In this document: positions 4,578 to 10,520 of the stretch, piece after piece | Layout of the letters: each line of letters starts with the position of its first letter | How positions within the stretch are numbered: position 1 is the stretch's first letter | Assembly (NCBI GenBank): GCA_017428545.1 | Contig: JAFRQR010000002.1 | Span: forward strand, 124,001 to 188,000 | Reading direction: 5' to 3' | Length of the DNA: 64,000 nucleotides | DNA from: Clostridiales bacterium | GTDB taxonomy: Bacteria > Bacillota > Clostridia > Saccharofermentanales > Saccharofermentanaceae | Made by a program: the position numbers and the translations under genes | Notes under the pieces: generated by a model | Database searches by the model: none | The model's input: only the letters and a program-made list of their open reading frames with translations | What the model was told of the DNA's origin: nothing

Positions 4578-5207
4578 TTATTGATCCAATATTATTTCAA
4601 TGGCGCGGGAAGCCATATGTCCGGCGCAAATGAGAACTCGTGAAGCCGTTAGGCCGACACCATCTTCCACATCGGAAATTCCGTCTCCACATATTGTCAG
4701 ATGATCGGTAATCCTTTTTGTGGTTATCGCATTTGCATTACCGTATCCGGCCATTCCGATCCCTGAGATAACATGCTTATCCGGCATTGTTTCTAATACG
4801 CAATTTACCAGCATCGCTTTTGCCTCCGGCTTATCAAAGGCCTCGATGATAATGTCGCAATCTGAAAAGATCCTCTTACAGTTATTTTCAGATATCCGTT
4901 CATCATAAGATCTGATCTTGCAAAATGGGTTTATCTCCTGAATCTTTCGTGGAAGAGCTTCTGCTTTCTTTTCTCCGATATCTGAAAGAGTATATATCTG
5001 GCGGTTAATATTTGATAGTTCGACTACATCAAAGTCAGCAAGTGTCAGATATCCGATACCGCTTCTTGCCAGCGCACAGACTATATTAGATCCAAGACCT
5101 CCCAGTCCCGCTACGCCGATATGTGCATGTTTCATGATGTGATAGATCGGACGATCAGACCTTGAATCTATGGCTGATTCATATTCCTTTTCTGTGACCG
5201 GATCCAT
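4578..5207 (-). CDS. thiF: ThiF-family sulfur carrier adenylyltransferase (short form)
   Basis: A 209-residue E1-like enzyme that adenylates the C-terminal glycine of ThiS so that sulfur can be loaded. It shows the nucleotide-binding loop GVAGLGGLGSN, the LADFDVVELSNINRQ stretch and DIIIEAFDKPEAK. It is shorter than E. coli ThiF (about 250) and has no obvious paired CxxC zinc motif, which fits the short clostridial ThiF family 2. Its ATG shares one base with the thiS stop (TGATG), indicating translational coupling. Confidence 0.92.
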   Translation of the reverse strand: MDPVTEKEYESAIDSRSDRPIYHIMKHAHIGVAGLGGLGSNIVCALARSGIGYLTLADFDVVELSNINRQIYTLSDIGEKKAEALPRKIQEINPFCKIRSYDERISENNCKRIFSDCDIIIEAFDKPEAKAMLVNCVLETMPDKHVISGIGMAGYGNANAITTKRITDHLTICGDGISDVEDGVGLTASRVLICAGHMASRAIEIILDQ

Positions 5208-5398
5208 CAGCCGCCCCCTACAAAGCCGACGATATCAACTTCATCGCCATCTTTAAGTTCTCTGTTATAGTTGCTTTTCGGAAGGATCTCTCCGCATATC
5301 ATGACAGCGGTTCTTCCCGTATCGAGATTCATATCGCGAAGAATGTTTAAAACAGTCATTCCTTGATAAGGCTTTTCTTCGCCGTTGATCGTAACCAA
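5207..5398 (-). CDS. thiS: Sulfur carrier protein ThiS
   Basis: A 63-residue ubiquitin-like protein ending in GFVGGG, the glycine tail that becomes the thiocarboxylate. The start is set by the ribosome binding site: AAGGGAG (5413-5407) lies 8 nt before a TTG at 5398, whereas an in-frame ATG at 5416 would sit upstream of and inside the site. The resulting N-terminus, MVTINGEEK, matches the normal ThiS start and length (62-66 residues). It is the first gene of the thiazole operon, behind a leader with an internal terminator. Confidence 0.92.
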   Translation of the reverse strand: MVTINGEEKPYQGMTVLNILRDMNLDTGRTAVMICGEILPKSNYNRELKDGDEVDIVGFVGGG

Positions 5399-5426
5399 AA
5401 AGATCACTCCCTTCATTTTTCAGTGC

Positions 5427-5484
5427 AAAAAAAATACAGCACGTCCGGATCTTGCACCGATGGTGGTACACCCCGGACACGCTG
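5427..5484 (-). terminator. Intrinsic terminator inside the thiS leader (candidate attenuator)
   Basis: Read on the minus strand, CAGCGTGTCCGG (5484-5473) pairs with CCGGACGTGCTG (5448-5437), followed by TA and eight T (to 5427). The two non-Watson-Crick positions are G-U pairs in minus-strand RNA but A-C mismatches in plus-strand RNA, so the structure belongs to the thiS transcript. The 24-nt apical region holds two short competing hairpins (GGTG-TAC-CACC or CACC-ATC-GGTG). It lies between the promoter and thiS, so read-through must be controlled or partial. No THI-box (TPP riboswitch) sequence is recognisable. Confidence 0.75.
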
Positions 5485-5504
5485 CTTCCAACGGTCTGGA
5501 AAAT

Positions 5505-5533
5505 AGTACACCACTATTTCGATGTGATGTCAA
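5505..5533 (-). promoter_or_regulatory. Promoter of the thiS operon
   Basis: On the minus strand, TTGACA (5533-5528) is a perfect -35 box, with a 17-nt spacer and TGTACT (5510-5505) as a 4/6 -10 box. The predicted leader is about 100 nt and contains the intrinsic terminator. The sequence GGTGTAC occurs both across the -10 box and in the terminator loop. Confidence 0.68.
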
Positions 5534-5615
5534 GCAGTCAAAAACTGAGACTGTATATACTTCCTTAAGCGATGCTATAATAGAAAAAAGTGTAAGCGAC
5601 GGGGAGACACAGAAT

Positions 5616-6638
5616 ATGAGAGAGATCACACTTGGAAAAACAGGAATCACAGTACCTCAGAACGCTTTTGGCGCACTTCCGATCCAGCGTGTCGACCAGG
5701 ATACGGCCGTAAAACTTCTTCGAAAAGCCTATGATGGCGGAATGCGTTTTTTTGATACCGCAAGAGCATATACCGATAGTGAAGTGAAGGTGGGTGCCGC
5801 CTTTGACGGGATGCGTGACAAAGTCTTCATTGCCTCAAAGACCCAGGCAAAAGATCCTGATCAATTCTGGAAGGATCTGGATACGACCCTTAAGAATCTT
5901 CGGACCGATTATCTCGATATCTACCAGTTCCATTGTGCCAATAAGTGCTATCGCCCGGGAGACGGAAGTGGTATGTATGAGGCAATGCTGGAAGCGAAAA
6001 AACAGGGCAAGATCCGTCATATCAGTATCACTGCCCATTTGATCGGAGTTGCGGAAGAAATCGTTTCCTCCGGTCTTTATGAGACCCTTCAGTTTCCTTT
6101 TTCTTACCTTGCTTCTGACCGTGATATTGCTTTGGTAAAAGCATGTAATGAGGCGGATATGGGCTTTATCGCCATGAAAGGACTTGCCGGCGGACTTTTG
6201 ACGAACAGCCGTGCATGTATGGCTTTTATGAGTGAATACAATGTTCTTCCTATATGGGGCATCCAGAGAGAAGCGGAACTGGATCAGTGGCTCTCGTTCT
6301 TTAACGAAGATTATGAAATGACCGATGAGATCAAGGAGTTTATCGAAAAAGATAAATTGAACCTTCAGGGTGATTTCTGCCGTGGATGCGGATATTGCAT
6401 GCCGTGCACAGTCGATATCCAGATCAACCAGTGCGCGCGAATGTCCCAGCTGATCCGCCGTTCACCATCGGAAAATTTCAAAGGTGAATTCTGGCAGGGA
6501 GAAATGGCGAAGATCGAAAACTGCGTCGATTGCGGGATCTGTAAGACAAAATGCCCTTATGGACTGGACACACCGAGTCTTCTTCGTAAGAACCTTGCAG
6601 ATTACAAAAAGATCATCCGTTGCGAGATCGAAGTTTAA
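5616..6638 (+). CDS. Aldo/keto reductase with C-terminal 4Fe-4S motifs
   Basis: A 340-residue protein. The N-terminal about 260 residues are an aldo/keto reductase barrel with the tetrad residues visible (D and Y in FFDTARAYTDSE, K in IASKTQ, H in YQFHC). The C-terminus has a cysteine-rich region with CRGCGYCMPC and CVDCGICKTKCPYG, so it probably carries iron-sulfur clusters, as in a widespread anaerobe family of unknown substrate. ATG 5616 is chosen because GGGGAG (5601-5606) precedes it and the family begins with the LGKTGI motif; an in-frame extension to 5385 would cross the divergent thiS promoter. TATAAT at 5576-5581 is a likely -10 box. The exact reaction is not known. Confidence 0.9.
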   Translation: MREITLGKTGITVPQNAFGALPIQRVDQDTAVKLLRKAYDGGMRFFDTARAYTDSEVKVGAAFDGMRDKVFIASKTQAKDPDQFWKDLDTTLKNLRTDYLDIYQFHCANKCYRPGDGSGMYEAMLEAKKQGKIRHISITAHLIGVAEEIVSSGLYETLQFPFSYLASDRDIALVKACNEADMGFIAMKGLAGGLLTNSRACMAFMSEYNVLPIWGIQREAELDQWLSFFNEDYEMTDEIKEFIEKDKLNLQGDFCRGCGYCMPCTVDIQINQCARMSQLIRRSPSENFKGEFWQGEMAKIENCVDCGICKTKCPYGLDTPSLLRKNLADYKKIIRCEIEV

Positions 6639-10190: not shown

Positions 10191-10244
10191 CGGAATTATT
10201 TGCGACTTGCCAAGGTGATTTGTTTATGATACTTTAAATGAGTA

Positions 10245-10520
10245 ATCACAGTGAAGGGGATCAGTAGAGATCTTCCACTTCTTATAGAGAGCCCGGGACG
10301 GTGGAAGCCGGGTAGAAGAAAGGTTTTGAACTCGCCCTGGAGTGCGCTTCATTGAAAAAGACAGGTAGTAGATGAAGTCGGAGGCTCACCGTTATCAGAG
10401 AGCAGGATATCGGAATTTGCTCCCGTATCCGATGAGTGCATCACATAGTTGTGATGAAAAAGAGTGGTACCGCGGAAGTTATGGCTTTCGTCTCTTATTT
10501 GAGACGGAAGCCTTTTTGTT
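10245..10520 (+). ncRNA. T-box leader, leucine-specific (CTC specifier)
   Basis: The untranslated region before leuA has the T-box signature GAGTGGTACCGCGG (10462-10475), then a terminator hairpin GGCTTTCGTCTC (10483-10494) with GAGACGGAAGCC (10501-10512) and a T run. Upstream are a typical stem I with AGTAGA (10263-10268) and the specifier-loop context GAACTC, in which CTC (10331-10333) is a leucine codon, matching the downstream leucine-biosynthesis gene. Known mechanism: uncharged tRNA-Leu binds the specifier and T-box bulge and stabilises the antiterminator, so leuA is expressed when leucine is scarce. Promoter elements near 10207-10235 are weak. Confidence 0.93.

Follow-up and report, generated by a model that had tools for sequence, protein, structure and literature searches.

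The thiS gene that opens a thiazole synthesis operon in this Clostridiales genome is preceded by a leader that very probably constitutes an HMP-PP riboswitch (thiS motif) operating as a transcriptional ON switch, a reading in which ligand, sign of regulation, pseudoknot and pausing are carried over from the published class. Membership of the leader in this class is based on its sequence, structure, computed folds, conservation, covariation and gene context, and makes it a lineage-specific, newly recognised instance of a known device rather than a novel type. The thiS motif (Stav et al. 2019; Atilho et al. 2019; PMC6478431, PMC6429828), for which 400 or 700 representatives are given in the published accounts, was reported in 2019 to be an HMP-PP riboswitch that acts as an ON switch and has its aptamer inside the terminator (PMC6478431). 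The initial annotation of the window, by which we mean the whole 64,000-nucleotide stretch analysed here, had tentatively pointed to a candidate "thiS motif"; the guess was right, and the motif is by now more than a candidate. Its proposal that the leader senses thiamine, thiazole or sulfur status gives way to HMP-PP, the ligand described for the class (PMC6478431), which the window leader is thus expected to bind.

Promoter, terminator and alternative folds of the leader

All elements of the leader lie on the minus strand of the window. The perfect TTGACA -35 hexamer recognised in the initial annotation (5533-5528) is followed, after a spacing of 19 nt, by a probable -10 hexamer (5508-5503) that is imperfect because it reads TACTAT; both hexamers are the same in all seven aligned leaders of the genus. 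Transcription probably starts near 5498, which gives a leader of about 100 nt that extends to the thiS start codon (TTG, 5398), with a putative ribosome-binding site, GGGAG, at 5407-5411. This leader holds, as had been noted, a complete intrinsic terminator ahead of thiS: a hairpin spanning 5485-5436, in which 5485-5472 pairs with 5449-5436, then an A at 5435 and a run of eight U (5434-5427). The hairpin folds with -30.7 kcal/mol (z -4.6), and none of 200 shuffled sequences folded equally well. The initial annotation described two G-U pairs in the stem; the minimum-energy stem has four, two of which are adjacent in its lower part (21-60 and 22-59 in A2 numbering). Assignment of the attenuator to the thiS mRNA holds. 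The terminator is absent from the list produced by a terminator scanner because this program accepts loops of 3-8 nt only and the hairpin contains an internal loop.

Folding of truncated transcripts points to a second, proposed ON or aptamer state. In it, a stem termed P1 (5496-5476) would form upstream by pairing of 5496-5489 with 5484-5476, leaving base 5479 bulged. The dinucleotide CC (5476-5475) comes next, directly before GGGG (5474-5471), which by alignment and numbering corresponds to G24-G27 in the validated RNA; from the role given to those residues in PMC6478431, a pseudoknot between GGGG and the loop is proposed. The P2 hairpin UGUACC-ACCAUC-GGUGCA follows at 5470-5453, as indicated by the folds and by P2 covariation in other leaders, with 5463 at the position equivalent to C35. 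P1 is an alternative to the lower terminator stem, the two being exclusive in the computed folds, and its register differs from that of other members. The two mutually exclusive small loop hairpins reported earlier also appear in folds of short transcripts, one at a transcript length of 45 and the other from 46 on. As the transcript grows, the P1 and P2 fold gives way to a terminator-like arm at a length of 55-56 in the window (P1 and P2 up to 54, the arm from 56) and likewise at 55-56 in the Clostridium beijerinckii leader (L064); the change published from in vitro work is placed at a length of 52-54 (PMC6478431).

The leader could also be imagined as an attenuator in which ribosomes read a leader peptide and sense, for example, cysteine, given the open frames that cross it in the window. 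We consider this extremely unlikely: the frame opening at the ATG downstream of the -35 box is cut short by a single-base difference in two leaders (L005, L006), this ATG has no ribosome site ahead of it, and the riboswitch class explains the conserved loop. A terminator tipped by an aptamer, again with ON regulation, is also described for the guanidine-IV riboswitch (PMC8632094), which is likened here by its published description only and differs in its ligand and in the genes it controls.

Class membership within and beyond the genus

The covariance model R2 was derived from 21 non-genus leaders (alignment A4), picked for one spacer length among the 40 distinct ones collected, and matches the window leader at 5501-5426 on the minus strand with 27.6 bits (E 1.2e-5 within the window). 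In its own 2.9-Mb genome the leader is the sole R2 match at E<=1 (E 5.3e-4). Across the genus, leaders scoring at least 86 bits occur in exactly the eight of 23 genomes that carry thiG and are absent from the 15 without it, and R2 recovers the same eight genomes at 25.7-31 bits. Two further matches in the genus, in G019 and as an additional one in G010 (L047, L048), were weak, lacked the core and were set aside. Because the R2 score is moderate and is equalled by some ordinary hairpins, identification of the leader rests on score, core, spacing, context and conservation together. Hairpins devoid of the core scored about 23.5-32 bits in eight genomes of a phylum-wide R2 search, and these eight of the 21 genomes were dropped; in the order search, two coreless matches, in G025 (29.2 bits, before a ThrRS-like gene and T-box-like by eye) and G047 (28.0 bits), were dropped likewise.

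That such hairpins come so close to the leader in score, ordinary terminators of like shape falling near the R2 threshold, is one of two points in favour of a plain terminator that lowers thiS expression with no ligand involved, the other being the strength of the stem. In the alignment of the genus leaders, however, conservation of the loop and of GGGG exceeds that of the adjacent spacer, the loop is conserved across the phylum, and the upstream arm has an alternative pairing. A plain terminator is therefore very unlikely, and the HMP-PP riboswitch is the reading that we retain.

The converse search, in which a model from the genus leaders (R1) was run against 391 genomes of the taxonomic class, matched 27 genomes, 22 of which (the genome studied here included) carry the core GGGGU..ACCACC. 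Matches in the other five (L029, L032, L034, L035, L038) lack the core and were discarded as ordinary terminators or other RNAs. Twenty of the 22 core-bearing leaders lie before a ThiS-like frame, as judged by eye with two of the frames tested by profile. A pattern scan of named genomes, including C. beijerinckii and one member of the Coriobacteriaceae, found 19 stretches with the core, every one of them before a ThiS-like frame. Invariance of the core in leaders gathered in this way is partly by construction because the patterns fix GGGG and ACCACC, a limitation not shared by the matches from the R1 class search and the R2 phylum search. The two remaining core-bearing leaders of the R1 search deserve mention in their own right. 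In one (L028; G190:C1:1362851-1362919) the motif precedes only a truncated thiS-like start and looks like a remnant left after loss of thi genes; in the other (L037; G369:C44:21117-21188) it precedes a gene for a thiamine-binding protein (PF01910, 85.8 bits) in place of thiS, possibly another member of the regulon.

Stem covariation in relatives, named at the outset as a check on the attenuator, is present: eight of ten pairs of the lower (OFF) stem change on both sides among the 21 non-genus leaders. Within the genus, where the stem is too conserved, none of 20 stem pairs does so. For the whole structure, 99.4% of cells are paired in the 21 leaders, a value reached in none of 500 shuffles. 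A MAFFT alignment joining the genus and the class (A3) was left out of these pair counts because an 11-column gap fell in the stem. P2 pairs vary with compensation in five leaders examined by reading (L024, L075, L076, L077, L078). The test for P1 is a weak one, as a stem of at least three pairs can form in 37 of 41 anchored leaders but also in 69% of swapped arms.

Comparison with the validated RNA was made through L064. When counting starts at the A that would be position 1 in the published scheme, this leader reproduces the quoted positions (G24-27, G26, C35, U46-49, the U run at 61-66 and an end near 66) and thus appears to be the validated Maddingley RNA, a match made by the quoted position numbers only. 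GGGG, then P2, and a C at the position equivalent to C35 follow with the same spacing in the window, in the genus and in L064.

The initial annotation had seen no sign of a TPP riboswitch in the leader, and this is borne out. No TPP match was obtained at the gathering score anywhere in the window or at seven leader loci of the genus, and none at E<=10 in 5200-5700. The argument for an intact or decayed TPP riboswitch comes from relatives in the order, two of which (L010, L011) have one before thiS instead of the motif, which a third relative (G037) does carry; with the leader itself refuting this reading at the sequence level, its probability is close to nil. The TPP riboswitch (RF00059) resembles the HMP-PP riboswitch in controlling thiamin genes, in this genome too, but is an OFF switch of unrelated sequence.

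Scans with Rfam 15 gave nothing at the leader site in the window, only tRNA and one TPP match at the gathering score at 13 of the 19 named loci, and no credible match at E<=10 for L064. With no family for the class obtained from Rfam 15 here, these missing matches carry no weight, and Rfam-based annotation overlooks leaders of this kind.

A CC variant in the leaders of the genus

The genus leaders share with the class a terminator with a conserved loop, GGGG before P2, the ACC loop, an alternative upstream P1, a probable start site immediately ahead of the aptamer and association with a thiS operon. They depart from the members gathered here in several respects. Among 55 distinct leaders compared (five from the genus and 50 from elsewhere), a set in which GGGG and nearly all of ACCACC are fixed by the patterns, every one of the five genus leaders has CC directly before GGGG, where all 50 others have AA (44) or AT (6), so that the window leader lacks a feature that is invariant in the non-genus sample but is not taken here to define the class. 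The 5' end reads AGACCG in the genus and AGAGUG in most others, and P1 of the genus is bulged. UUUU follows P2 in the validated RNA, whereas the genus leaders have no U run there and show AGAU or GACU; the published M3 mutant, from which three U of this run were removed, is reported to have kept its response (PMC6478431). The seven aligned genus leaders have the promoter hexamers in common, as well as most of the aptamer core, amid sequence that drifts. One leader (L008) has an A in place of the bulged U, which breaks a terminator pair and leaves P1 intact.

These differences raise the question of whether the genus leaders, with their rebuilt P1 and CC, form a distinct HMP-PP subclass of changed ligand affinity or specificity, which we regard as doubtful. 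A further step, in which the bases beside GGGG would have shifted recognition to another ligand, such as HMP-P or another thiamin precursor, is less probable still and in our view quite unlikely. The uniform CC could alter ligand contacts, and P1 is displaced in register and bulges a U or an A; on the other hand, GGGG, the ACC loop and P2 are all kept, the gene context is that of the class, and the matching GG in the terminator arm means that CC may amount to no more than an exchange of stem pairs. With HMP-PP retained as the expected ligand, the genus variant provides natural substitutions beside the proposed binding site.

The operon and the two branches of thiamin synthesis

Downstream of the leader, on the same strand, lie thiS (5398-5207; TTG start; TIGR01683, 50.8 bits and over the cut-off; PF02597), thiF (5207-4578; NF006395, 250 bits), thiG (4559-3786; PF05690, 334 bits), thiH (3789-2617; TIGR02351, 517 bits) and a gene of the TenI/ThiE family (2636-2067; PF02581, 133 bits). 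The product of the last is probably the thiazole tautomerase TenI: the family scores, neither of which reaches its own cut-off, lean slightly towards TenI (104.3 bits against 99.9 bits for ThiE), and a full thiE is present elsewhere in the genome. This other locus (G000:C16:163397-167276) consists of thiM-thiE-thiD-thiC preceded by a TPP riboswitch (L119). Besides the pyrimidine branch it includes genes for salvage and joining, and its regulation is separate from that of the thiazole branch. Over the genus, 22 of 23 genomes carry thiC and eight carry thiG; most of these genomes, having thiC without thiG, may depend on salvaged thiazole.

By analogy with the published class, the leader would work as follows. 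When HMP-PP is absent, the transcript would fold into the strong terminator and RNA polymerase would stop before thiS. With HMP-PP present during a polymerase pause in the U run, the exposed P1 and P2, with GGGG docked on the loop, would bind the ligand. The terminator's 5' arm would then stay paired upstream and transcription would proceed through thiS-thiF-thiG-thiH and the TenI/ThiE-family gene, which would limit thiazole synthesis to times when the partner pyrimidine is available. The gene order suggests that low TPP opens the pyrimidine branch and that its product, HMP-PP, opens the thiazole branch; most likely, then, HMP-PP supplied by the branch under TPP repression prevents termination and switches thiazole synthesis on. 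This would place the rare HMP-PP class in a genus with a TPP OFF switch on the pyrimidine branch and an HMP-PP ON switch on the thiazole branch. A tandem arrangement of the class is described as acting as a logic gate (PMC6478431), of which the arrangement in the genus may be seen as an untangled version.

Elsewhere in the window, the gene divergent from the thiS operon (5616-6638, plus strand) encodes an aldo/keto reductase with a C-terminal 4Fe-4S domain. Further along the same strand, a T-box leader (10242-10498; 130.7 bits) precedes a gene that, by eye, resembles that of 2-isopropylmalate synthase (leuA).
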